NCBI GenBank assembly: GCA_913057195.1
Contig: CAJXNL010000002.1
Span: forward strand, 1 to 64,000
Direction: 5' to 3'
DNA: 64,000 bases
Source of the DNA: an uncultured Wenzhouxiangella sp.
Lineage (GTDB): Bacteria > Pseudomonadota > Gammaproteobacteria > Xanthomonadales > Wenzhouxiangellaceae
The notes beneath the pieces are model-generated. The model was not told the origin of the DNA. It searched no databases and was given only the letters and a program-made list of their open reading frames with translations. Below, one piece after another: positions 2,591 through 62,418 of the stretch. The position numbers and the translations under genes were made by a program. Every line of letters begins with the position of its first letter. Position 1 is the stretch's first letter.

Positions 2591-3514
2591 ATGGCCGCGT
2601 ATCTGATCATCTTCTCGTTTATCGCCCTGGGTTTGGTGCTGCAGCAATGGCCCAAAGTGCCTTCGGGAAGCGCCCACTGGCTGAACCAAGTGGCGATCTT
2701 TGTGTGCCTGCCTGCGTTGGTGCTGATCCACGTGCCCACGTTGGAGCCCGATCCATCGCTGCTGCCCCTGGTTGCGGTGCCTTGGGCACTGCTGGCGCTC
2801 ACCGTTGGGGTGGTTTGGCCACTGGCCCGCTGGTTGGGTTGGCCGCGCGAGGTGATGGCTGTGTTGCTGGTGCTGTTGCCTTTGGGCAACACCTCTTTTC
2901 TGGGGTTTCCATTGACCGAGGCGTTGCTCGGTGCCACCGCATTGCCGTTGGCCGTCGTCTATGATCAGTTTGGTTCTTTTTTGATGGTGTGCACACACGT
3001 GCTGTTTGTGGTGGCTTGGTTTGGGCAAGGCGCCAACCCAACCGTGGGTCGCGTGCTGGCTCAAATGCTTCGATTTCCCCCGTTTTTAGCGCTGGGGGTC
3101 GCTTTGGTGTGGGGTCACGACTGGTTGGGGGATTGGGGATGGGTCATCGCCGAAGGGCTTGCTGACTTGCTTTTGCCCCTTGTGACGGTCGCCATCGGTC
3201 TGAGTCTTAAATGGCGCTTGCCGGGTCAATACTGGCCGGCTTTGGTGTTTGGGGTGAGTGCGAAGTTGTTGGTGTTGCCGCTGGCTGCAATGGGTGGATT
3301 GGTGGTGACCGCCGGGGCATTAAGCTTAGATCCCATGGTGGCGCGGGTGGCGCTGTTAGAAGCGGCGATGCCATCCATGATCACGGCCTCTGCGTTGCTG
3401 ATACGAGCCAACCTTGCACCCGATCTGGCGAGCGCATTGGTCACTTGGACCGTTGTCCTGTCGGTGGCCACCGTGCCGCTGTGGCACGCCCTTGGCGGCC
3501 TGATTTGGGGTTGA
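2591..3514 (+). CDS. AEC-family (auxin efflux carrier-like) permease
   Basis: This 307-residue protein is almost entirely hydrophobic, with about ten membrane segments. It shows the AEC hallmarks: an N-terminal half with NTSFLGFPLTEALLG, and a C-terminal half with LLEAAMPSMITASALL followed by the last helix pair. AEC carriers in bacteria export or import organic acids or amino acids; the substrate here cannot be told from sequence. The gene ends 11 bases from the asnS stop codon on the opposite strand. No strong Shine-Dalgarno precedes the ATG. Confidence 0.85.
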   Translation: MAAYLIIFSFIALGLVLQQWPKVPSGSAHWLNQVAIFVCLPALVLIHVPTLEPDPSLLPLVAVPWALLALTVGVVWPLARWLGWPREVMAVLLVLLPLGNTSFLGFPLTEALLGATALPLAVVYDQFGSFLMVCTHVLFVVAWFGQGANPTVGRVLAQMLRFPPFLALGVALVWGHDWLGDWGWVIAEGLADLLLPLVTVAIGLSLKWRLPGQYWPALVFGVSAKLLVLPLAAMGGLVVTAGALSLDPMVARVALLEAAMPSMITASALLIRANLAPDLASALVTWTVVLSVATVPLWHALGGLIWG

Positions 3515-3525
3515 GCGGCTTCGTG

Positions 3526-4950
3526 TCAGAAAGGCGCGCTTTTCGGCGTTCGAGGATAGGGAATCACGTCGCGAATGTTGCTCAGGCCTGTGATGTAGTT
3601 GAGCAGTCGTTCAAACCCAAGCCCGAAACCGGCATGCGGGACGGTGCCATATCGGCGCAGGTCCAGGAACCACTCATAATCGCCACCGTCAAGGCCGTGC
3701 TGTGCCATGCGTTTGGCCAATACCTCCAAGCGCTCTTCGCGCTGAGACCCGCCAATGATTTCACCAATGCCTGGCGCGAGCACGTCCATGGCCGCCACGG
3801 TTTGGCCATCGTCATTCAAACGCATGTAAAACGCTTTGATGGCATCGGGATAATTTTTGACGACCACCGGCGCCTGGCAATGGTCCTCGGTTAAGAAACG
3901 TTCGTGCTCGGTTTGTAGGTCGGTGCCCCAGGCGACGGGGTGTTCGAAATCACGCCCTGATTTTTGTAGGATCTCAACCGCTTCGGTGTAGTCCAATTGG
4001 ACGAAGGGTTGATCGATGACGTTTTGAAGCCGGGTGATGGCCTCGGGTTCGACGCGGTCGGCGAAAAAAGCCATATCATCGCCGCAGTGCTCGAGCACCT
4101 CAGCAAACACCGACTTCAAAAAGTGCTCGGCCAGCTGCGATAAATCCGCCAGATCTGCGAAGGCGACCTCAGGCTCAACCATCCAAAACTCTGCCAGGTG
4201 TCTTGACGTGTTGGAGTTCTCTGCGCGGAAGGTGGGTCCAAAGGTGTAGACCTTGCTCATGGCCAAACAAAAGGCTTCCACGTTAAGCTGGCCCGAGACG
4301 GTGAGAAAGGTCTCCCGACCAAAAAAGTCTTGTGCATAATCGATGGCGCCAGCGTCTGTTTGAGGCAGGTTCATCATATCCAGGGTGCTGACTCGGAAAA
4401 GCTGGCCTGCACCCTCCGCATCGGAGGCTGTGATGATGGGCGTGTTGATCCAAAAATAGCCCATGTCATCGAAAAATTGATGGATGGCGCGCGCGGCTCG
4501 GTGGCGGATGCGTGTCACTGCGCCGAACGTGTTTGTCCGCGGTCTTAGGTGCGCAACGCTCCGCAGAAACTCATAAGAGTGCTTTTTCGGCTGAATGGGA
4601 TAGGTGTCTGGATCCTCGACATCGCCCAACACGTCAATAGATTGGACCTGAATTTCAACCGACTGACCCTTGCCTTGTGACTCAACCACGGTGCCGATGC
4701 ACCGCAGGGCACTGCCGGCGGTGAGGCGCAAAACATCGCTGGCGTAATTGTCGAGATCTTGATTGGCCACCAATTGGATGTTGGCCAAACACGACCCGTC
4801 ATTGACGTGGACAAATGAAAACCCCGCTTTCGAGTCGCGTCGAGTTCTGACCCAGCCCTCGACAGTGACGGTCTCGTTAACCGGAAACGCGCCATCGAGG
4901 AGCGCTTTGACGGACGCTTTGGGGGCTTCAGAGTGGTGATCGGTATCCAT
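3526..4950 (-). CDS. asnS: Asparagine-tRNA ligase
   Basis: This class IIb aminoacyl-tRNA synthetase (474 residues) charges tRNA-Asn in the cytoplasm. The N-terminal OB fold (about 20-115, with [20 protein letters not shown]) binds the anticodon. The catalytic domain has motif 2 ([21 protein letters not shown] split over this region) and motif 3 ([10 protein letters not shown]), and ends in [12 protein letters not shown], the AsnRS signature. The start is ATG 4950, preceded by AGGAAA about ten bases upstream. An in-frame extension to 5028 encodes an unrelated hydrophobic stretch and would overlap the divergent gene. Length matches the family. Confidence 0.97.
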
Positions 4951-5002
4951 GGATGCGTCTTTTCCTGCAAGGATGAATTGGATTGCTACAATAATACTCA
5001 AG

Positions 5003-5395
5003 ATGACCGCGAACATGACAAACCACACTCAAATCGACGCTGACATTACGCTCACCGAAGCCGCGGTCGCGCGTGTTCAGCAATTTCTCGCCAAAGAGGG
5101 GGGATGCGGCCTATATTTGGACGTGCGGCGCACCGGGTGTTCGGGGTGGGCCTATGAGCTGGAGATCGCGCATGGGCGCCCAGTCGGCGACGAGGTGCTG
5201 ATCCAAGATCAGGGCATTGATGTGTTTGTCACCCCCAAGGCCTTGGGCATGATGCAGGGCACGGTGATTGATTTTGTTCATGACGGGCTGGTTGCCGAGT
5301 TTCGCTTCAAAAATCCCAATGTTCAGGCCGAGTGCGGCTGTGGGGAGAGCTTCACGGTTCAGGCGCCGGCGTCAAGCACGGTGCCCTCGGGCTGA
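5003..5395 (+). CDS. IscA/ErpA-type iron-sulfur cluster carrier protein
   Basis: This HesB/IscA-family A-type carrier is about 130 residues and passes Fe-S clusters to client enzymes. The three ligand cysteines are present: Cys46 in [10 protein letters not shown] and Cys111 and Cys113 in ECGCGESF. An extra Cys35 lies nearby. The tail [16 protein letters not shown] is closest to IscA. It stands alone, divergent from asnS, with no iscS, iscU or suf genes beside it, so it may act as a general A-type carrier. The start is ATG 5003, and ATG 5015 is possible. A TACAAT -10-like element lies just upstream. Confidence 0.9.
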
Positions 5396-5499
5396 CGCCG
5401 CGGCCCGATCACGCGCCGATCCAACCGCCTCACTGTCAGTCGATTGACCCAAGCCGGTTGACCCTTCCATGAGTGGGGCGACCGGCTGATCCACCCCGA

Positions 5500-5528
5500 T
5501 TGTGATCGCGCCCGTGGCGCGCTATAAT
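5500..5528 (+). promoter_or_regulatory. Sigma-70 promoter of the rpsF operon
   Basis: The -35 element TTGTGA (5500-5505) and a perfect -10 TATAAT (5523-5528) are separated by 17 bases. They lie about 90 bases before the rpsF start, leaving a transcribed leader. Confidence 0.85.
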
Positions 5529-5569
5529 AGCGGGCTGGCTCAGCAATGGGCCTTCCTTGCTCCACAAAC

Positions 5570-5587
5570 GCCCTCCGAAAAGAGGGC
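5570..5587 (+). promoter_or_regulatory. Hairpin in the rpsF leader, possible S6:S18 feedback element
   Basis: GCCCTC and GAGGGC pair around a CGAAAA loop inside the leader that starts from the 5523 promoter. Many bacteria control this operon through a leader RNA that binds the S6:S18 dimer and displays a CCG element. A CCG straddles the stem-loop junction here, so autoregulation is plausible but unproven. Confidence 0.45.
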
Positions 5588-5620
5588 CTTTGGGGGCTTT
5601 TAACCGAAAGGAGAACACCA

Positions 5621-8385: not shown

Positions 8386-9459
8386 ATGCCCCGCAACACT
8401 GAAGCCTTCATCGATCCCAGTGCCGTCGAGCATAACCTCAAGCAGGTTCGCCGCTGGGCGGGCACATCAAACATTATGGCCGTGGTGAAAGCCGATGCGT
8501 ATGGCCATCGATTGGATGGCTGTTTCGATGCATTGGCGCAAGCGGACCTGCTGGCGGTGGCAACGCTTGAGGAGGCACGGGCCATTCGCCAGTTGGGGGC
8601 TGCCACACCCATTGTTCTGCTTGAGGGCGTGGCCCACGCTCAAGATCTCTGCGCCGCTGAGGCACTGCGGTTGGAGCTTGTGATTCATAGCCGGTATCAG
8701 CTGGAAGCCCTTCAACAGCGCGGACAATCACCCACGCCGCGGGTCTGGCTCAAAATCAATACCGGCATGAACCGACTGGGTGTGCGTCCCGGCGAGGCCA
8801 AAAGCATGCACACCGAGCTCTCTCAGCTGCCCGGCGTCGAGACAGTCTGTTTGATGAGTCACTTTGCCAGTGCCGGCGCATCGCCTTCCACGACCAAAGA
8901 CCAGATTCGCTGCTTTGATCAGGCCACTGAGGGGCTGGCTGGCCCACACTGTCTGGCCAACTCTGCCGCGTTGTTGACTGAGCCCTCAGCGCACCGCGAT
9001 TGGGTGCGCGCGGGGCTTGTGCTATACGGTGTCTCGCCGCTGCCCGACCAAACGGGGGCTGATCTGGGGCTCATCCCCGCCATGTCGCTTGAGGCCGAGC
9101 TCATCGCCATTAATTCTGTGTTTGCTGGCGAGCGGGTGGGTTATGGCGGTCGGTTTGAGGCGCCTGAGGATATGGTGTTGGGTGTCGTGTCGATCGGTTA
9201 TGGCGATGGGTATCCGCGAGCCATGCAAGACGGTGCACCGGTGTGGGTCAACGGCCAAATCACGCGCCTGGTGGGTCGAGTGTCGATGGACATGATCACG
9301 ATTGATCTCACCGACATGCCCGATGCCGCGATTGGTGATCGGGTTCGGCTTTGGGGTCCGGCGCTCCCTGTTGAGACGGTGGCGCGCTGGGCAGAGACCA
9401 TCCCTTATGAGTTGGTGTGTCGTTTAACTCGACGGGTGCGCTACAATATCAACCCATGA
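8386..9459 (+). CDS. alr: Alanine racemase
   Basis: This fold-type III PLP enzyme makes D-alanine for peptidoglycan. The PLP lysine lies in VVKADAYGH near the N-terminus, and the second catalytic Tyr region is seen around RVGYGGRF and [10 protein letters not shown]. It has 357 residues, normal for the family. The start ATG lies 28 bases after dnaB. Its stop overlaps the miaB start in an ATGA, implying translational coupling, although the two functions are unrelated. Confidence 0.96.
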
Positions 9460-10799
9460 ATTCAAAGCTTTATATCAAAACGCACGGCTGCCAAATGAAC
9501 GAGTATGACTCGGAGAAAATGGCAGATGTGCTCCGTGCCTCGCATGGTCTGGAGCTCACCGATGATCCCAACGATGCCGATGTGATCTTGATCAATACTT
9601 GCTCCATCCGTGAGAAGGCTCAAGAGAAGGTGTTTTCCCAGTTGGGCCGGTGGCGCCCGATTAAGGACAAACGGCCAGATGTTGTCATTGGCGTGGGCGG
9701 CTGCGTGGCATCGCAAGAAGGGAAGGGTCTGCGCGCACGCGCGCCTTTTGTGGACTTGGTGTTTGGCCCGCAGACGATTCACCGCCTGCCACAGATGCTG
9801 GATCAGGTGAAAGCCGGTCACGGCGCAGCCGTTGATGTCAGTTTCCCAGAGATCGAAAAATTTGACCATCTGCCACCGGTCGGTAAAAAAGGCGCCAGTG
9901 CCTTTGTCTCGGTGATGGAGGGCTGTTCTAAGTATTGCTCTTTTTGTGTTGTTCCCTATACCCGCGGTGAAGAAGTCAGTCGACCTTTGGATGATGTCAT
10001 TGCTGAGGTCGCCGCACTGGCTGATCAAGGCGTGATTGAGATCAACTTGCTTGGGCAGAATGTCAATGCGTATCGGGGCCCGATGCACGATGGCGGCTAT
10101 GCCGATCTTGCGCTGCTTATTCGCTATGTGGCACACATCGACGGCGTTGAGCGCATTCGATTCACCACCTCCCATCCGGTCGAGTTCTCTGACAGCCTCA
10201 TTGAAGCCTATCGCGATGTGCCCAAGTTGGCGAACTACCTGCACCTCCCGGTTCAGGCCGGATCAGACCGCGTGCTGTCGTTGATGAAGCGGGGCCACAC
10301 GGTGCTGGAGTACAAGCAAAAAATCCGAAAGCTCCGACAGGCGCGACCGGACATCGGATTGTCATCGGATTTTATTGTTGGCTTCCCAGGCGAAACAGCG
10401 CATGACTTTGAGCAAACCATGGCGCTGGTTGAAGAGCTCAATTTCGACCAAAGCTTCAGCTTTGTGTACTCAGCGCGGCCAGGCACGCCGGCGGCCTCCT
10501 ATCCTGATAACGTCACGCTAGAAGAGAAGAAAGCGCGTCTGGCGCGGCTGCAGACGTTGATCAATGCACAGGCGCAATCGTACTCAGAAGCCATGGTGGG
10601 GGCGGTGGAGCGAGTCGTGGTTGAGGGCCCCAGCAAGAAAAACCCCAAAGAGTTGGCGGGCCGGACTGAAAACAACCGAGTGGTGAATTTTCAGGGGCCT
10701 GAGGCATTGGTCGGTCGTATGGCCGATGTGGTGATCGTTGAGGCGTTGCGAAATTCACTTCGTGGGCGGTTGCATGACCCCCAGAGCCAGGTGGCCTGA
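9456..10799 (+). CDS. miaB: tRNA-2-methylthio-N6-dimethylallyladenosine synthase MiaB
   Basis: This radical-SAM methylthiotransferase acts on i6A37 of tRNAs reading UNN codons. It has an N-terminal UPF0004 domain with [11 protein letters not shown] and further conserved Cys ([17 protein letters not shown]), the radical SAM motif [12 protein letters not shown] (CxxxCxxC), and a C-terminal TRAM domain. It has 447 residues, close to E. coli MiaB. The ATG overlaps the alr stop by four bases. It heads the conserved miaB-ybeZ-ybeY-corC run. Confidence 0.97.
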
Positions 10800-11770
10800 T
10801 GGCTGCATCACCATCGCCGGAGGCAGGGGGGCATTCTCAGACCCAAACCGTCATTCTAGAACCCGTGGACAATGAGCGACTGGCCAATCTGTCTGGTCAT
10901 CTGGATGAGCACTTGCACATTATTGAGAATCGCTTGGGCGTTGACATTGCCGCCCGCGGCGAACTGTTCCAGGTCAAGGGGGCCCCAGCGGCGGTGAAAT
11001 CAACCGAGCGGGTGCTGCGTGCGCTGTATGATCAAACCGCCTCAGAGACCGTCACGCCCGCTGCCGTGAACCTTTATTTGCAGGACGCTGGGCTCAATGA
11101 GGAAGACTCGCAAGTGGGTGTTGGGATTAAGACCCGCCGCGGAATGATCCGAGGGCGCGGCCCGAACCAAAGGCGCTACTTAGAGAGAATTGCGGCGTGC
11201 GATGTCAATTTTGGGGTGGGACCAGCCGGCACGGGCAAAACGTTTTTGGCGGTGGCCTGCGCCGTGGAGGCGCTGGATTCCGAGCGTTGCCAACGCATTG
11301 TGTTGGTTCGACCCGCGGTCGAAGCGGGGGAGCGGCTGGGATTTTTGCCGGGCGATTTGGCGCAAAAAGTGGACCCATATCTGCGACCATTGCACGATGC
11401 ACTGTTTGAAATGCTTGGGTTTGAAAAGGCCACCCGTTTGGCTGAGCGGCATGTCATTGAAGTCGCCCCGTTGGCCTATATGCGAGGTCGAACGCTGAAT
11501 GATGCTTTTGTCATTCTTGATGAAGCGCAAAACACCACCTCCGAGCAAATGAAGATGTTTTTGACGCGCATTGGTTTTGGATCGAAAGCAGTGATCACGG
11601 GGGATTTAACCCAGATTGATCTGCCTTCCTCGTCGCCGTCGGGGCTAAAACAAGCCGTAGAACTTCTCAAAGACGTCGAGGGTGTGAGTCAAACTTACTT
11701 TGATGCCCGGGATGTGGTTCGCCACCCCATCGTGCGTCGAATCATCGAGGCCTATGACAACGCACCATAA
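10799..11770 (+). CDS. ybeZ: PhoH-like ATPase YbeZ
   Basis: This 323-residue PhoH-family NTPase has Walker A GPAGTGKTFLAVA (about 141-150) and Walker B FVILDEAQNTT (about 236-246). An N-terminal KH-like segment precedes them. YbeZ pairs with the endoribonuclease YbeY in rRNA maturation and quality control. The start ATG shares a base with the miaB stop (TGATG), and the 3' end overlaps ybeY, consistent with coupled expression. Confidence 0.94.
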   Translation: MAASPSPEAGGHSQTQTVILEPVDNERLANLSGHLDEHLHIIENRLGVDIAARGELFQVKGAPAAVKSTERVLRALYDQTASETVTPAAVNLYLQDAGLNEEDSQVGVGIKTRRGMIRGRGPNQRRYLERIAACDVNFGVGPAGTGKTFLAVACAVEALDSERCQRIVLVRPAVEAGERLGFLPGDLAQKVDPYLRPLHDALFEMLGFEKATRLAERHVIEVAPLAYMRGRTLNDAFVILDEAQNTTSEQMKMFLTRIGFGSKAVITGDLTQIDLPSSSPSGLKQAVELLKDVEGVSQTYFDARDVVRHPIVRRIIEAYDNAP

Positions 11771-12266
11771 ACTGGACGAGGGCCCTTATGGGGCGGCCAT
11801 TGAGATCCATCGAGACGGCGATGTGGTCAACAGTCCTGACGATGCCTCGGTGTCATTATGGGTGAGCACGGCCCTTTCTGATTGGAGCCGACCCGAAGTG
11901 CTGGTGCCTGAGTTGCCAGTCGTTGGCATTCGGATCACGGGGGAATCGGAGGCCAGAGCGCTCAATCATCACTGGCGCGGCCGCGATTACCCCACGAATG
12001 TGTTGAGCTTCCCATCGGAGGTGGCCGGATTTTTAGGTGACATCGCACTGTGTGCACCCGTGATTGAGCAAGAGGCCAAAACGCATAAAAAGAGCTCGCA
12101 GGCCCATTGGGCCCATTTGGTGATTCATGGCGTGTTGCATTTGCGAGGCCATGATCATGAGACCAAAGCCAGTGCGAACGTCATGGAGCGTCAAGAGATT
12201 GAAAAATTGCAAACGCTTGGCTTTGACAATCCCTACGTCATGGAAGAGGGAACAGTGGACAAATGA
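11754..12266 (+). CDS. ybeY: Endoribonuclease YbeY (rRNA maturation factor)
   Basis: This zinc-dependent single-strand endoribonuclease processes 16S rRNA 3' ends. The metal motif HGVLHLRGHDH (H-x3-H-x5-H, about residues 125-135) and the conserved NVLSFP are present. It has 170 residues, somewhat longer than E. coli (155). ATG 11754 is chosen because it begins 17 bases before the ybeZ stop, as often seen for this pair. An earlier in-frame ATG at 11700 would overlap ybeZ much more. Confidence 0.94.
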   Translation: MTTHHKLDEGPYGAAIEIHRDGDVVNSPDDASVSLWVSTALSDWSRPEVLVPELPVVGIRITGESEARALNHHWRGRDYPTNVLSFPSEVAGFLGDIALCAPVIEQEAKTHKKSSQAHWAHLVIHGVLHLRGHDHETKASANVMERQEIEKLQTLGFDNPYVMEEGTVDK

Positions 12267-13099
12267 ATGACGATAGCGTTGACGACCGAGCCGCTTCGGT
12301 CGGCTGGTTAGAGCGCCTCGGGCGTGCGTTGGGTGGAGAGCCCAAAAGCCGGGAGGGGTTGGTCGAGTTGCTGGGTGAGGCATCCAAGCAGGGGCTGATT
12401 GATGCCGACACCCTGGCGATGTTGATCGGCGCGTTGGGCGTGGATGAATTGCAAGTCAGAGATGTGATGGTCCCGCGGTCGCATATGGTCGTTTTGCCAA
12501 GAACGGGCAGCCTCGACGAGATCTTGCCGCTGATCATGGAATCTGGGCACTCTCGCTTCCCGGTGGTGGGCGAGGATCGTGATGAGGTTGAAGGCATCTT
12601 GTTGGCCAAGGATCTGCTTCAGTTGGTGTCTGGAGGTCAGGCACTTGACCTCAATGCCCTGCTTCGTCCGGCGGTGATCATCCCAGAGTCTAAGCGCTTA
12701 AATGTTTTACTTAGAGAGTTTCGCGTCAGTAAAAACCACATGGCCATTGTGGTTGATGAGTACGGTGGCACCTCGGGCTTGATCACCATAGAAGATGTTT
12801 TAGAAGAGATTGTGGGCGACATTGACGATGAGCATGATGTTGAAGCGGTCGATGATGTCCAAAAATTGGAAGGTGGCGGGTTTTTGGTTCAGGCGTTGGC
12901 CACGATTGAGGACATCAACGACCGGCTTGGAAGCGACTTTAGCGATGCCGACTATGACACCATCGGTGGGCTCGTGGTCGCTCAATTCGGCCGGGTGCCT
13001 GAGGTTGGTGAGACAACACAAATCGGGAATTGGGCTTTTGTGGTCCAAAGCGCTGATGAGCGTCGACTGCATGCCATGGAGATGCGATCTGTTGAGTAG
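12263..13099 (+). CDS. corC: CBS-domain protein CorC/YbeX
   Basis: This 278-residue cytoplasmic protein has two CBS domains (about 75-190, including VRDVMVPRSHMVVL and VVDEYGGTSGLITIEDVLEEIVGDI) and a C-terminal CorC_HlyC domain. The family is linked to Mg/Co efflux and, as YbeX, to ribosome metabolism. The ATG overlaps the ybeY stop (ATGA). In most gammaproteobacteria lnt follows corC; here the next gene is a DUF4105 protein. Confidence 0.93.
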   Translation: MNDDSVDDRAASVGWLERLGRALGGEPKSREGLVELLGEASKQGLIDADTLAMLIGALGVDELQVRDVMVPRSHMVVLPRTGSLDEILPLIMESGHSRFPVVGEDRDEVEGILLAKDLLQLVSGGQALDLNALLRPAVIIPESKRLNVLLREFRVSKNHMAIVVDEYGGTSGLITIEDVLEEIVGDIDDEHDVEAVDDVQKLEGGGFLVQALATIEDINDRLGSDFSDADYDTIGGLVVAQFGRVPEVGETTQIGNWAFVVQSADERRLHAMEMRSVE

Positions 13100-14291
13100 T
13101 TGGCGAGTGGTGATCGGCGTTGCTTGGCTCGTCTTGTGTGGCGGGGCACAGGCGCAACTCTCCAACAGCTCAGAATTGAGCAGCACCCCTCAAGCGCACC
13201 TGGTGACCTATGGGCAAGGCAGTGAGGTTTGGGAGTGGTTTGGCCACAATGCGCTGTGGCTTCAAGACCCCTCTCGCGGCCTGAATCACACCTTCAGCTT
13301 TGGCTATTTTGATATTGAGCAGGCCGGTTTTTATCGGCGCTTTATTCTTGGAGACATGCAATATTTTGGGACGGCCGTTCCGGCCGAACAGGAGTTTGCA
13401 TTTTATCGTCGTGCCAATCGATCCATTCGGGTCCAAACGCTCAACCTCAGCGCCGCTGAGTTTACGCGTTTATACGAGCTGCTCACCAATGCCATCGAAC
13501 CTTACCCCCGCTACTACAGCTATGACTATTTCTTAGCCAACTGCTCCACATGGCTTCGTGATCTGCTTGACCAGACGCTTGATGGGTTGTTATCCAATCA
13601 ACTCAAAACCAGTCCGGCGGCGGACACATTTCGATCTCATACCCACGCCCAAACCGACCGTCAGCCTTGGGCGCAGCTGGGTTTGATGACGCTTTTAGGT
13701 CCTGCCGTTGATCAGCCGATAACGGCTTGGGACGAGGCTTTCTTGCCTGCTGTGTTGGCCGAGCAGGTCGCGACACTGCACCGAGGGGAGGGACCTTTGG
13801 TGGTGAATGATGAATGGCGGTATGCGCCTGAGCGTGCTTTGCCCGTCGAGGCCAACGCGGGACTTTGGTCGACGCCGCTTTGGGGAGTGCTGCTGGCAGG
13901 GTTGGTGCTGGGTGCATCCTGGCGAAGACACTGGCTTGGCATTGGCGTCCAAGCCGGGGTGGTGGTGAGTTTGGCTCTCGCTGGGCTGGTCCTCATCGGT
14001 ATGTGGACGCTGACAGCGCATGAGGTGGTGGCACACAATCCAGCCCTGGCCATGCTTCATCCACTGTGGTTGGGCCTGGTCCCGGGGTTGGCCCTGCGCT
14101 GGCAGGCCAGGGCGTGGTGGGGATGCCTTGGGGTCCTGGCGCTGGGCAGCTTGGTTTGGGCCATCGGTGGCTTGTGGCCACATCAAGACGTGCTGATCTG
14201 TGTTTTGCCTGTGGTGTTGGCGACGCTGTGGGTCACTCGCCCCAATCGACGATCCGATCAGCCTGTGGGGCGTGCTTCGGTTGATGGGTAA
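13071..14291 (+). CDS. DUF4105/Lnb-like membrane protein, candidate lipoprotein N-acyltransferase
   Basis: This protein of about 406 residues has an N-terminal signal segment ending CGGAQA, a periplasmic domain (about 30-270) and roughly five C-terminal membrane helices. The DUF4105 domain has a conserved His in FGHNALWL (His59) and a Cys in NCSTWLRD (Cys158), suggesting a papain-like Cys-His site. From memory, this family (Pfam Lnb N-terminal domain) was linked in Bacteroides to N-acylation of lipoproteins. It occupies the slot after corC where lnt usually lies, so the same job is a reasonable inference. The start is uncertain: ATG 13071 overlaps corC by 29 bases, and TTG 13092 with GGAG upstream is the alternative. 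The 3' end overlaps convergent cydC by 59 bases. Confidence 0.85.
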   Translation: MPWRCDLLSSWRVVIGVAWLVLCGGAQAQLSNSSELSSTPQAHLVTYGQGSEVWEWFGHNALWLQDPSRGLNHTFSFGYFDIEQAGFYRRFILGDMQYFGTAVPAEQEFAFYRRANRSIRVQTLNLSAAEFTRLYELLTNAIEPYPRYYSYDYFLANCSTWLRDLLDQTLDGLLSNQLKTSPAADTFRSHTHAQTDRQPWAQLGLMTLLGPAVDQPITAWDEAFLPAVLAEQVATLHRGEGPLVVNDEWRYAPERALPVEANAGLWSTPLWGVLLAGLVLGASWRRHWLGIGVQAGVVVSLALAGLVLIGMWTLTAHEVVAHNPALAMLHPLWLGLVPGLALRWQARAWWGCLGVLALGSLVWAIGGLWPHQDVLICVLPVVLATLWVTRPNRRSDQPVGRASVDG

Positions 14292-15870
14292 TAATCAATG
14301 CGGTTTTGTTGGCCAGCCACTGATTGAGGGTTTGATTCAGTGCTGCGTTGGTCGGCGCATCAAGCCCCGTGTTGGGCTCATCCAAGATAACCAGTTCAGG
14401 ATCCGCGAGGATTAATCGGGCCAAAGCCACTCGCCTGGCCTCACCGCCAGATAGATTGCTCGCATTTTCTTCGATCCACGCCTCAAGCCCGTCCTCAAGT
14501 TGCGCATAGCGCTCGGCCAGGCCGGCTGAGGCTAGGGCATTGATCAGCTGCTGGTCGGTGGCGTCAGGACGGGCCATGCGCAAATTGTTGGCCAAGGTAT
14601 CTGAAAACAACACCGGATCTTGGGACAAATACCCCACGCGCGCAGGCGCGTCTGGATCAAACGCGCTGGGCTGGACCGACACCGTTCCAGCGCTGGGACT
14701 GAGCTCGCCCATCAGCAATCTGGCCAAGGTCGTTTTGCCACAGCCGCTGGGTCCGATCAGAAGGACAGTCTCGCCCCGATCGATGACCACGCTGAGATCT
14801 TCAACCACTTTGATCTCAGTTTGGGGGTAGGCAAATGAGACGTGATCCAGCCGCCAGGCATGCTCGAATGTGAGCGCTCGCGGTGTGGGCTGTTGCTCGG
14901 CATGCCCCAATGAATCAATCCGTCCGCCGGCTCGACGCGTCTCGCTCAAACGGCGCCACGCGCCGGGTATGGGCTGCCAGATTTCACTCAGCCCGAGAAT
15001 CAGCAGCACCACCAAGCCAAGCCATGGACCATCAATGACCCCGGCATGATAACGATCAATGCCCACTGCCAATACCAGCCACAATGCCGCGGCACTGATG
15101 AGCATGGACACGCCAGTGCCGACACTGTCCCAGATCTGTGTGTTTCGCTGCGCTTTTATCAGTGCCGTCGATTCTGCGCCAATTTGCTGGGCCACCTCAG
15201 TGACTCGGTCTAACGCAAGGACGCTTTCGATCGTCTCAAAAGTCTCGGTCAATTGGCGGCGCATGGTGGAGATGCGATCAATCACGCGGCGGCTGGTCGC
15301 CGCACCCTGATTGGCGATCCAGCTCGACGAGGCGGTTTGGAGCACCAACATGAACGCCAGGACGATCAGGGCCAAGGACGCATCCGCCCACCAAAAAAAG
15401 ACGGCCGCAAGCGTGGCCGTAAGTCCCCACGCCGCCACGCTGGGTCCAATCACCCCCAAAAAGAGATGATCAAGTTGGTTGATGTCGTGAACAAAACGAT
15501 TCAGGGTTTCACCCTGAGCCAATCGACGCTGCTGAGTGGCGGGGAGTCGGAGCAGCTGTCCAAACAGTTGGTCTCTGATGTCTGCCAACGCCCGAAAGGT
15601 GGCCTCATGTGTCACCAAACGCTCTGCATAGCGCGACCCTGTGCGCACCACTGCCGCCATGCGAATCCCCGCCCCGGGCGTAAAAATATCCAAGCCCAGC
15701 AGCAAACCAGCACCGGCCAATGCGCTGGCGGTGATGAACCATCCAGATAGGCCCAGCAACACCATGCCAGCCGCCAAGCTCAGCCCGATGAGCGCAAGCC
15801 CCAAAAGCATCCAGCCGGGGCGTTGGAACACCAATCGGTGATGCCACTTGAGAGAAGTCATGTGCTGCAT
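14233..15870 (-). CDS. cydC: Heterodimeric thiol/heme ABC exporter subunit CydC
   Basis: This 545-residue ABC half-transporter has six N-terminal membrane segments and a C-terminal ATPase with Walker A LIGPSGCGKTTL (about 366-377), signature NLSGGE and Walker B ELVILDEPNTG. CydDC exports glutathione and cysteine, or affects heme, and is needed to assemble cytochrome bd. Its start overlaps the cydD stop: ATG 15870 has GGCGGG eight bases upstream, and ATG 15861 would form an ATGA overlap. It is the last gene of the cyd operon. Its 3' end runs into the DUF4105 gene on the other strand. Confidence 0.92.
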   Translation of the reverse strand: MQHMTSLKWHHRLVFQRPGWMLLGLALIGLSLAAGMVLLGLSGWFITASALAGAGLLLGLDIFTPGAGIRMAAVVRTGSRYAERLVTHEATFRALADIRDQLFGQLLRLPATQQRRLAQGETLNRFVHDINQLDHLFLGVIGPSVAAWGLTATLAAVFFWWADASLALIVLAFMLVLQTASSSWIANQGAATSRRVIDRISTMRRQLTETFETIESVLALDRVTEVAQQIGAESTALIKAQRNTQIWDSVGTGVSMLISAAALWLVLAVGIDRYHAGVIDGPWLGLVVLLILGLSEIWQPIPGAWRRLSETRRAGGRIDSLGHAEQQPTPRALTFEHAWRLDHVSFAYPQTEIKVVEDLSVVIDRGETVLLIGPSGCGKTTLARLLMGELSPSAGTVSVQPSAFDPDAPARVGYLSQDPVLFSDTLANNLRMARPDATDQQLINALASAGLAERYAQLEDGLEAWIEENASNLSGGEARRVALARLILADPELVILDEPNTGLDAPTNAALNQTLNQWLANKTALIITHQPKHAPQADRIVDWGE

Positions 15871-60491: not shown

Positions 60492-61736
60492 GTGTTTCAG
60501 CCCGTATCGCTCTACATCGGTCTTCGTTATCTGCGTGCCAAGCGCCGAAATCACTTCATCTCATTTATTTCACTGATATCCATGGCGGGCATTGCGCTGG
60601 GGGTGATGACACTGATTACGGTGCTCAGCGTCATGAACGGCTTTGAAAAAGAGCTCAGAGAGCGACTGCTGGGCATGGTCTCCCATGCGACCATTCAAGA
60701 CATTGGGGGTCCATTGACCGAATGGCGTGAGCTTTTAGATCAGGTTCAGGCCTATCCGGAAGTGCAGGGCGTGGCCCCTTACGTGGAACAAGAAACCCTG
60801 ATTGATGGTCGTCGAACGGCAGGTGCACTGATTCGTGGCATTGATCCCAATTTAGAACCCGGGGTCTCTGATCTGGACGAGTTGATGGTCATGGGCCAGT
60901 TGTCTGATCTTGAGACAAACCGTTGGGGCATCGTTCTGGGCGTGGGGTTGGCGGGGCGTTTGGGCGTGGGCCCAGGCGATTCGGTGACGGTGTTTGCCCC
61001 TCAAATTCGAACCACACCCGCCGGCGTGATCCCGCAGGTGCGCCGCTTTGAAGTGGTGGGTCTATTCGAGGCCGGCGTGCATGAGTACGACACAGCGGTT
61101 GCCATGATGCATCACCGGGATGCACAAAGGCTTTTTCGGATGAAGGGTGGTGTCAGCGGTCTTCGGTTGAAGTTGACCGATCTGATGCAAGCGCCCATCG
61201 TGTCGCGTCAGATTGGTCAAGCGCTTCCGGGGGTGTATCAGATTCGAGATTGGACTCAACAAAATGCCAATTTTTTTCGAGCCGTTCAGACCGAGAAAAC
61301 GGTCATGTTCATCATTTTGTCGCTGATCATTGCGGTGGCAGCGTTCAACATTATTTCGACTCTGGTCATGGTGGTCACAGACAAGCAGGCCGACATCGCC
61401 ATTTTAAAGACCATGGGTTTGGATCCAAGAAGAATTCGTCATGTTTTCATGGTCCAAGGCGCTTTTATCGGGGTGATTGGGACGGCGTTGGGTGTGGTCG
61501 CTGGCGTTGCATTGGCATTAAATGTCCAAGACGCGGTGGCTTTGGTTGAGCAACTGCTGTCTGTTGATTTTTTGTCAGCAGAGGTCTATTACATTTCTGA
61601 TTTGCCCTCAGAGTTGGTATTGAGCGATGTGATTCGGTTTGCTGGCTTGGCCTTGGTGCTGTCGCTTTTGTCAACGATTTATCCCGCCTGGCGGGCGGCC
61701 CAAACGGACGCTGTTGAGGCCCTTCGCTATGAGTGA
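60492..61736 (+). CDS. lolC: Lipoprotein-releasing ABC permease LolC (possibly LolF-type)
   Basis: This 414-residue permease has an N-terminal helix (LISMAGIALGVMTLITVLSV), a periplasmic domain and three C-terminal helices of the FtsX fold. The LolC Hook that binds LolA is recognisable in RTTPAGVIPQVRRFEVVG. The end LSTIYPAWRAAQTDAVEALRYE region is near identical in pattern to E. coli LolC. The start is GTG 60492, 3 bases after rluC. No lolE follows lolD; comEC comes next. This suggests either a homodimeric LolF-type permease or a lolE elsewhere. Confidence 0.93.
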   Translation: MFQPVSLYIGLRYLRAKRRNHFISFISLISMAGIALGVMTLITVLSVMNGFEKELRERLLGMVSHATIQDIGGPLTEWRELLDQVQAYPEVQGVAPYVEQETLIDGRRTAGALIRGIDPNLEPGVSDLDELMVMGQLSDLETNRWGIVLGVGLAGRLGVGPGDSVTVFAPQIRTTPAGVIPQVRRFEVVGLFEAGVHEYDTAVAMMHHRDAQRLFRMKGGVSGLRLKLTDLMQAPIVSRQIGQALPGVYQIRDWTQQNANFFRAVQTEKTVMFIILSLIIAVAAFNIISTLVMVVTDKQADIAILKTMGLDPRRIRHVFMVQGAFIGVIGTALGVVAGVALALNVQDAVALVEQLLSVDFLSAEVYYISDLPSELVLSDVIRFAGLALVLSLLSTIYPAWRAAQTDAVEALRYE

Positions 61737-62418
61737 GGCGGGTGGCGTTTTGAAATTACGCAACGTGGTCAAAACGTTTGATCAGGGTCCCATTAAGATT
61801 CCTGTGTTGCAGGGCATTGATTTTGAGCTTGGTCGCGGCGAGCGTGTCGCCATTGTCGGCGCATCGGGTACAGGCAAAAGCACATTGCTTCATCTCATGG
61901 GTGGGTTGGATCGACCCACCCAAGGTGATGTCATGATCCATAACCAGTCCCTGGCTGGGCAAAGTGAGGCGGCGTTGGCTGCCATCCGCAACCGCTCTTT
62001 GGGGTTTGTCTACCAATTCCACCATCTCTTGGCCGAGTTCAGTGCGCTTGAGAATGTTGCCATGCCTTTGCTGATTCGAGGTCAGTCAGCGTCCGAGGCG
62101 CGCAATGCGGCGCAGGCCATCTTAGAAGAGGTCGGATTGGCGGCTCGGCTTCATCACAAACCCGGTGAAATGTCAGGTGGTGAGCGTCAGCGCGCCGCCG
62201 TGGCCAGGGCCATGGTGACTCGCCCCAGTTGTCTACTGGCCGATGAGCCAACGGGCAACTTAGATGAGCAAAACTCGACACAAATCGAAGCGCTTTTGCT
62301 GAAATTAAATGCTGACTATCAAACAGCGGTGGTGATTGTGACGCATGACCGCGCTCTGGCGGATCAAATGGATCGTTGCCTCGAAATGCGCAACGGAGTG
62401 CTCGTCGAGCTGACCTGA
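61729..62418 (+). CDS. lolD: Lipoprotein-releasing ABC ATPase LolD
   Basis: This 229-residue ATPase has Walker A VGASGTGKSTLLHLMGGLD, Q-loop VYQFHHLLAEFSALEN, signature MSGGERQRAAVARAM and Walker B CLLADEPTGNLD. The LolD-specific FHHLLAEF segment supports the assignment over MacB-type ATPases. ATG 61729 overlaps the lolC stop by eight bases; an earlier frame start would lie deep within lolC. It powers release of outer membrane lipoproteins to LolA. Confidence 0.94.
   Translation: MSEAGGVLKLRNVVKTFDQGPIKIPVLQGIDFELGRGERVAIVGASGTGKSTLLHLMGGLDRPTQGDVMIHNQSLAGQSEAALAAIRNRSLGFVYQFHHLLAEFSALENVAMPLLIRGQSASEARNAAQAILEEVGLAARLHHKPGEMSGGERQRAAVARAMVTRPSCLLADEPTGNLDEQNSTQIEALLLKLNADYQTAVVIVTHDRALADQMDRCLEMRNGVLVELT

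Follow-up and report, generated by a model that had tools for sequence, protein, structure and literature searches.

Gene row and protein family

The window considered here is a stretch of 64,000 nucleotides from an uncultured Wenzhouxiangella sp. (assembly GCA_913057195.1, contig CAJXNL010000002.1, positions 1 to 64,000), and the gene in question is an open reading frame (ORF) that directly follows corC, the position usually held by lnt, the gene for the apolipoprotein N-acyltransferase. Its product resembles Lnb, the lipoprotein N-acyltransferase of Bacteroides (PMC12994826, PMC12345273, PMC13103446, PMC11694511), the genus in which the first-pass annotation had tied DUF4105 to N-acylation. 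According to the window ORFs and Pfam, the gene row on one strand is miaB, phoH (ybeZ), ybeY, corC and then the Lnb-type ORF:

9456..10799, plus strand: miaB, an ORF named by eye, in a gene order common to relatives
10799..11770, plus strand: phoH / ybeZ (PhoH, 311.7 bits)
11754..12266, plus strand: ybeY (YbeY, 97.8 bits; scanned from 11745, with an in-frame ATG at 11754)
12263..13099, plus strand: corC (CBS pair and CorC_HlyC by Pfam), directly upstream of the Lnb-type gene
13071..14291, plus strand: Lnb-type protein gene, 406 aa (ATG at 13071, stop ending at 14291), in the slot usual for lnt
13200..13643, plus strand: Lnb_N, putative periplasmic catalytic domain of predicted permuted NlpC/P60 fold (Pfam residues 44-191; invariant columns; YiiX and TseH fold matches)
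13245-13247, plus strand: His59 codon
13542-13544, plus strand: Cys158 codon
13893..14228, plus strand: predicted C-terminal transmembrane region, 5TMH_Lnb (Pfam residues 275-386, 22.8 bits; helices in the structural model)
14233-15870, minus strand: ABC-transporter gene (cydC by eye; Pfam ABC_tran and ABC_membrane)

The 3' end of corC and the start of the Lnb-type gene share 29 nt, and the 3' end of the Lnb-type gene overlaps the convergent ABC-transporter gene by 59 nt. The placement of a gene other than lnt after ybeZ-ybeY-corC in the first-pass annotation is thus confirmed by an ORF on the same strand that overlaps corC. A scan of regulatory sites gave 3 predicted promoters against 3.4 expected (chance level) and 20 terminator-like sites against 9.7 expected; neither result was used.

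The Pfam scan of the window protein gave only Lnb_N (PF13387; residues 44-191, 58.4 bits, over the gathering cut-off of 22.2) and 5TMH_Lnb (residues 275-386, 22.8 bits, E 1e-4, slightly below the cut-off of 25.2). LNT_N and CN_hydrolase were not reported by it, and the Pfam and NCBIfam scans together reported no family besides Lnb. Lnb_N, which we take to be the former DUF4105, occurs once in the genome to which the window belongs (G000). The NCBIfam model of Lnb, NF051878, aligns nearly full-length (residues 38-386 against model positions 27-381 of 394; 140.9 bits, E 4.7e-41), so that the profile comparison proposed in the first-pass annotation comes out in favor of Lnb, though under the model's equivalog cut-off of 550 bits. 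In an alignment of the window protein with 29 sequences from relatives (A1, 30 sequences), NF051878 is matched by all 30; at E<=0.001, Lnb_N is matched in 30/30 and 5TMH_Lnb in 28/30 (best 4e-12). His59 and Cys158, which had been read as the marks of a DUF4105-type domain, are invariant in all 30 sequences. They belong to a set of 14 invariant columns (H59, C158, T46, G58, F87, Y98, R117, N157, R163, G210, P226, G305, N323 and P331), of which His59, Asn157-Cys158 and Arg163 lie in the catalytic domain, and Gly305, Asn323 and Pro331 within the helices at the C-terminus. The N-terminus, ahead of Lnb_N, is hydrophobic.

These data support the assignment of the window protein to a divergent Lnb-type variant, below the equivalog cut-off, with a putative activity that would follow from homology. 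Like Bacteroides Lnb (NF051878; PF13387 and PF25221), it matches the two domains in the same order, 5TMH_Lnb slightly under its cut-off, and aligns over nearly the full length, and it comes from a genome without detectable Lnt. It differs in scoring only 140.9 bits against 550, in an activity that is predicted by homology, and in being gammaproteobacterial and encoded inside a phoH-ybeY-corC row. With Lnt (TIGR00546; LNT_N and CN_hydrolase) it shares the slot after corC, and presumably the reaction and the side of the membrane. However, Lnt consists of a membrane domain and a nitrilase domain, whereas the Lnb-type protein has a domain of predicted permuted NlpC/P60 fold followed by helices.

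In an AlphaFold2 model built on A1 (pLDDT 88.6, pTM 0.83), a single N-terminal helix precedes a mixed alpha/beta domain, and the C-terminal part is helical. Its four long helices (264-284, 288-314, 342-366, and 373-388) are accompanied by short ones, for which the earlier count of about five C-terminal helices was fair. A Foldseek search of the PDB gave nothing at E<=0.001 and ranked the T6SS effector TseH first (E 0.013, probability 1.00). With VIA-align 2, two solved permuted NlpC/P60 members, YiiX (Z 12.1, 164 residues, rmsd 3.7) and TseH (Z 11.7, 153 residues, rmsd 3.5), stand well above the remaining rows (Z 7.2 and lower), which include H-REV107 (Z 6.3), a representative of a type of phospholipid acyltransferase. 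The shared fold covers residues ~36-255 of the window protein for YiiX and TseH, and 38-169 for H-REV107; all three align to the N-terminal domain alone and not to the C-terminal helices. VIA-align rows that cover those helices (GH84, 14-3-3, and others) were regarded as commonplace helical arrangements. Sequence search found no solved structure (best E 0.11, unrelated), and a viral fold library gave nothing useful (best E 0.04). As modelled, the N-terminal domain is of the permuted NlpC/P60 fold class, the group in which YiiX, TseH, LRAT, and DUF4105 have been placed (PMC12994826), and it shares a conserved His before the Cys with YiiX, TseH, Tox-Act1, LRAT, and H-REV107.

A fold of this kind could also belong to a membrane enzyme of the same clan that transfers or hydrolyses lipid acyl groups on another substrate, for example in phospholipid remodelling, with the lipoproteins staying diacylated. 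That is an unlikely reading of the window protein. The clan does have lipid-acting members (LRAT, H-REV107-type enzymes, and Tox-Act1; PMC12994826), the fold matches to YiiX, TseH, and H-REV107 agree with it, and the NF051878 score lies under the equivalog cut-off; the nearly full-length match to the Lnb model speaks against it, as does the distribution described below.

Occupants of the slot after corC

Genome G000 is an assembly of 1.775 Mb in 29 contigs and is 98.94% complete; the other sampled genomes of the genus that are at least 95% complete measure 2.1-4.2 Mb, so that it is apparently a reduced relative. The lnt model TIGR00546 found nothing in G000 over its cut-off of 132.9 (best 45 bits), its weaker matches fall within genes other than the Lnb-type one, and the CN-hydrolase family PF00795 was matched only twice. 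One match is NadE, the NAD+ synthase (724.8 bits); the other is an AguB-like (N-carbamoylputrescine amidase-like) protein with 297.9 bits, under the cut-off of 410.25 and with only 65.6 for lnt, whose gene adjoins an ORF that by eye resembles agmatine deiminase. Lgt is present (256.4 bits). A lnt hidden elsewhere in G000 was rejected on these grounds, as no TIGR00546 match exceeds the cut-off and both CN-hydrolases are assigned otherwise, and the genome-wide check called for at first pass has come back empty. In an assembly of 29 contigs at this completeness a lnt within a contig gap is conceivable, but 293 of 397 genomes of the order equally lack Lnt at E<=1e-18.

These 397 genomes, each at least 90% complete, were searched with the A1 profile and the Lnt model at the same settings. 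The NCBI taxonomy places the Wenzhouxiangella family in Chromatiales and Luteibacter in Lysobacterales; the order meant here is the Xanthomonadales of GTDB, which we take to hold both. The A1 (Lnb) profile matches 394/397 genomes (E<=0.001), mostly with one match each. Lnt exceeds the TIGR00546 cut-off in 45/397 and is matched at E<=1e-18 in 104/397; all 293 genomes without a match at this level have Lnb. The three genomes without Lnb (G042, G052, and G054) are exactly the three with an Lnt of ~300 bits, beside corC. G054 is doubtful as a clean swap of Lnt for Lnb: its miaB, phoH, and corC are far from those of the order (418, 274, and 123 bits), its CorC branch is very long (drawn length 4.3; 6.3 when taken as an end branch), and the genome (locus L102) may be misplaced or chimeric. 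The clean cases within the order are the two genomes of family f7 (G042 and G052, one genus), where lnt begins right after corC. In a smaller set of 61 relatives, Lnb_N occurs in 56 and Lnt over the cut-off in 12; two of the five without Lnb_N are incomplete (G001, 65%; G029, 85%). An unrelated lipid activity would hardly explain an exchange in one slot with complementary losses in 3/3 cases (one of them the doubtful genome), nor the retention of Lnb in 394/397 genomes, and these counts speak further against an enzyme with another substrate.

Gene order agrees across loci. Among the Lnb loci of relatives, 28/33 have the gene directly after corC, on the same strand and within less than 300 nt, as in the window with its 29-nt overlap; three have a gap of 0.9-1.3 kb, and two (L080 and L082) have no corC in the stretch examined. 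L082:5294-6568 is a second, very divergent Lnb copy in genome G036, with no corC nearby and 79.3 bits to NF051878. In the gapped loci L069, L072, L110, and L114, an alpha/beta-hydrolase-like gene on the opposite strand stands between corC and lnb; L069 and L114 are one contig, and Pfam supports the hydrolase for L072 alone (4396-5613, minus strand). Named contigs, that is, the best 80 loci of a contig profile scan that overlaps with the relatives' loci, have Lnb directly after corC in 57 cases, with a gap in 7, and without corC in 16. Those beside corC include Luteibacter, Dyella, Rhodanobacter, Dokdonella, Thermomonas, and Lysobacter, and the loci examined include none from a record named Xanthomonas or Xylella. 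Of the 16 without corC, 14 come from Gemmatimonadota, Planctomycetota, or Nitrospirota, with no corC in the stretch examined at any of these loci, and eight neighbour proteins from four non-proteobacterial Lnb loci showed no shared context; the remaining two are L145, the same locus as L080, and L136, where the match is near the contig start.

The control set comprised 20 lnt loci of Gammaproteobacteria that do not belong to the order, chosen by hand among the top-scoring Lnt matches of the class sample rather than at random. Of these, 18 have corC directly upstream; in L237 it is ~3 kb away, and in L230 there is none in the stretch examined. The statement that lnt usually follows corC in this class therefore holds, and so does the description of the swap as lying within a gammaproteobacterial core operon, although it is a state of the whole order and no peculiarity of one genome. 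The data support an exchange of Lnb and Lnt at the position after corC throughout the sampled order; a non-orthologous displacement close to the root of the order is the best reading of it.

At the level of the class, 377 gammaproteobacterial genomes, at least 95% complete, were sampled. Lnt is matched at E<=1e-25 in 355/377 and over the cut-off in 352, and Lnb_N in 92/377, while full-length Lnb is found in only seven, six from the order plus G346. Lnt at E<=1e-25 is missing from six of the seven, compared with 16 of the remaining 370 (Fisher p 1.3e-7, with species not independent); the seventh, G047, has an Lnt-like match in an 853-aa frame. The 16 are G062, G074, G096, G133, G146, G149, G193, G239, G258, G292, G306, G312, G374, G383, G394, and G427, of which many are small; for G394 and G427 the absence of Lnt was read from gaps in the result list, and these two, for which the A1 profile was not run, are not among the Lnb_N-positive genomes. 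The 16 would have either diacylated lipoproteins, a diverged Lnt, or a third enzyme.

The notion that Lnb_N anywhere means Lnb was rejected, since outside the order the full-length family was found in G346 only, despite the 92/377 genomes with Lnb_N. For the 85 other Lnb_N genomes outside the order, the A1 profile was run against the entire genome in 54 cases, and likewise for G117 and G324; one was covered through the single locus L198 and 30 through their best locus, and in the 28 genomes tested at the best locus only, the further Lnb_N matches are all in frames of at least 582 aa. Two such proteins, of 637 and 628 aa (L209:4231-6144 and L210:3863-5749), have a DUF7843-Lnb_N-DUF7840 architecture. 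They share the Lnb_N core domain with the window protein but have no C-terminal membrane segments in a hydropathy scan, match NF051878 in the core alone (25.9 and 31.9 bits), and come from genomes that also have Lnt.

History of the slot

In a midpoint-rooted CorC tree with 55 rows, the f7 pair is united with 32 Lnb-bearing rows of the order at a fork with support 96/98 and stands beside them; the fork of the 32 themselves has 96/78, short of the starred level. The simplest reading of this placement is that Lnt is ancestral, that f7 kept it, and that Lnb displaced it once elsewhere, and it is likely, but not firm, that Lnt was the ancestral occupant of the slot and that a single displacement followed the split of f7. 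An Lnb tree (51 rows, without Bacteroidota sequences) joins its 13 non-proteobacterial rows in one clade (100/99). Genome G346, outside the order, has full-length Lnb directly after corC (L192), and Lnt is not matched there at E<=1e-25. In the trees its Lnb groups among those of the order (with family f4 at 93/65), but its CorC lies outside. This discordance suggests, with weak support, that the slot was converted a second time, by horizontal transfer.

Taken together, one swap of Lnt for Lnb in place across the whole order, followed by a later transfer from the order to G346, is a tentative picture, somewhat less than evenly probable. The slot would be a standing exchange point, and members of the order, plant pathogens included, would triacylate their lipoproteins by way of a cysteine enzyme. 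A recurring exchange of the same pattern is in print: Lnt is stated to have displaced DUF4105 proteins repeatedly, in three genomic contexts (PMC12994826, PLoS Biol 2026). That paper names Bacteroides and Firmicutes for the DUF4105 clade, and its main text contains neither "ybeY" nor "Gammaproteobacteria." As late as 2023, DUF4105 was classed as papain-like and without known function (PMC10318531). The literature searched, which did not extend to subscription papers and supplements where such a report may be in print, gave no report of Lnb in this order. Lnb itself and its recurring exchange with Lnt are thus published, and it is the order-wide extent that was not found in this literature.

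Proposed function and lipoprotein maturation

The window protein is probably a lipoprotein N-acyltransferase of the Lnb type that, in this gammaproteobacterium, stands in for the missing Lnt. The non-orthologous replacement proposed in the first-pass annotation gains support from the search for Lnt in G000, which found none, the Lnb profile match, and the exchange of Lnb and Lnt in one slot across the order. The N-terminal helix would act as a signal peptide or anchor and put the permuted NlpC/P60 domain on the periplasmic face, an orientation that follows from the hydrophobic N-terminal helix and the Pfam description. The C-terminal helices would hold the enzyme in the inner membrane beside phospholipid and diacylglyceryl-lipoprotein. 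There, Cys158, activated by His59, would accept an acyl chain from phospholipid and form a thioester. Transfer of this chain to the S-diacylglyceryl-cysteine that Lgt and LspA produce, at its free alpha-amino group, would complete a triacylated lipoprotein. On the simplest account, Lnb would have taken the place of Lnt behind phoH-ybeY-corC a single time, close to the root of the order and after the f7 lineage had branched off.

The results computed here are neutral as to the acyl donor. If the enzyme N-acylated lipoproteins as Lit does, by moving an acyl chain within the molecule away from the glyceryl group, the product would be a lyso-form rather than a triacylated lipoprotein. The Lol system may need an N-acyl chain rather than triacylation, and Lit can complement an E. 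coli lnt deletion (PMC11784454). A Lit-like reaction is nevertheless very unlikely for this family, as Bacteroides Lnb is described as similar to Lnt in catalytic activity and comes from a species with triacylated lipoproteins (PMC11694511), and the family scans of the window protein, which did not include a direct alignment of Lit, gave only Lnb.

Transport to the outer membrane bears on how far N-acylation is needed. Near its far end the window carries two lol genes:

60492..61736, plus strand: LolC/E-family permease in a LolF-like arrangement (TIGR02212, 493.8 bits)
61729..62418, plus strand: lolD ATPase, 3' of the permease (TIGR02211, 312.0 bits, over its cut-off)

This permease, with lolD downstream, is the only strong LolC/E-family match in G000 (the next has 31.9 bits). 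A lolF-lolD pair is the common layout and goes with tolerance of lnt loss (PMC11784454), and N-acylation by Lnb may, by analogy, be useful but not essential here. The same tolerance, which accompanies LolDF-type transporters, lends something to the enzyme with another substrate, as does a 2023 paper on LolA and LolB of Xanthomonas campestris pv. campestris (Xcc), in which no lnt gene was identified in strain B100 and diacyl anchors were inferred and modelled (PMC10368991).

Several results weigh against Lnb as the replacement of Lnt. At the level of the protein, the NF051878 score does not reach the equivalog cut-off and 5TMH_Lnb falls below its own, which makes the window protein a divergent relative of the tested Lnb; its likeness to Bacteroides Lnb was established through family models. 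The Lnb of family f9 is very divergent (E 8e-104 to 6e-62 with the A1 profile). With a LolDF-like arrangement N-acylation need not be essential, and the 16/370 class genomes that have neither Lnt nor full-length Lnb indicate that loss of Lnt alone demands no substitute. G056, one of the six class genomes counted as having full-length Lnb but no Lnt, has a sub-cut-off Lnt-like match (E 4.2e-25, 88.9 bits) that just misses the threshold.

Finally, in 42/397 genomes of the order Lnb coexists with an Lnt-like protein that exceeds the TIGR00546 cut-off. In 36 of these the match lies in an open frame of 816-968 aa, in two of the window's genus in frames of 434 and 562 aa, in one in a 515-aa frame, and in three in ~500-aa frames that pass the cut-off only with neighbouring pieces. 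The one long frame that was scanned (L106:4802-7315) has LNT_N, CN_hydrolase, and an unassigned C-terminal stretch of ~300 aa, and is near a GDSL-type hydrolase. At L103, from the window's genus, two separate neighbouring genes (1418-2995 and 3015-3941) code for the Lnt-like part and for a 308-aa product that no Pfam family matches. The long proteins possibly belong to a different acyltransferase system. They also give some color to the idea that a divergent CN-hydrolase elsewhere supplies Lnt activity, with Lnb as an accessory. This is highly improbable: no divergent Lnt was found in G000, where the CN-hydrolases are NadE and the AguB-like amidase, most genomes of the order lack Lnt at E<=1e-18, and the four Lnt-like loci examined (L103-L106) have no corC within the stretch examined.

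Lipoprotein maturation is a core step in building the outer membrane and is pursued as a drug target. If an Lnb-type enzyme does replace Lnt here, almost a whole gammaproteobacterial order would have exchanged one of the three maturation enzymes for an unrelated cysteine enzyme. This would explain why the apolipoprotein N-acyltransferase is among the missing BUSCO genes of Xanthomonas vasicola, X. albilineans, and Xylella fastidiosa (PMC7828034), and it would contradict the view that Xanthomonas lipoproteins are diacylated for want of Lnt (PMC10368991). In that case, inhibitors directed at Lnt would presumably be without effect on this order.

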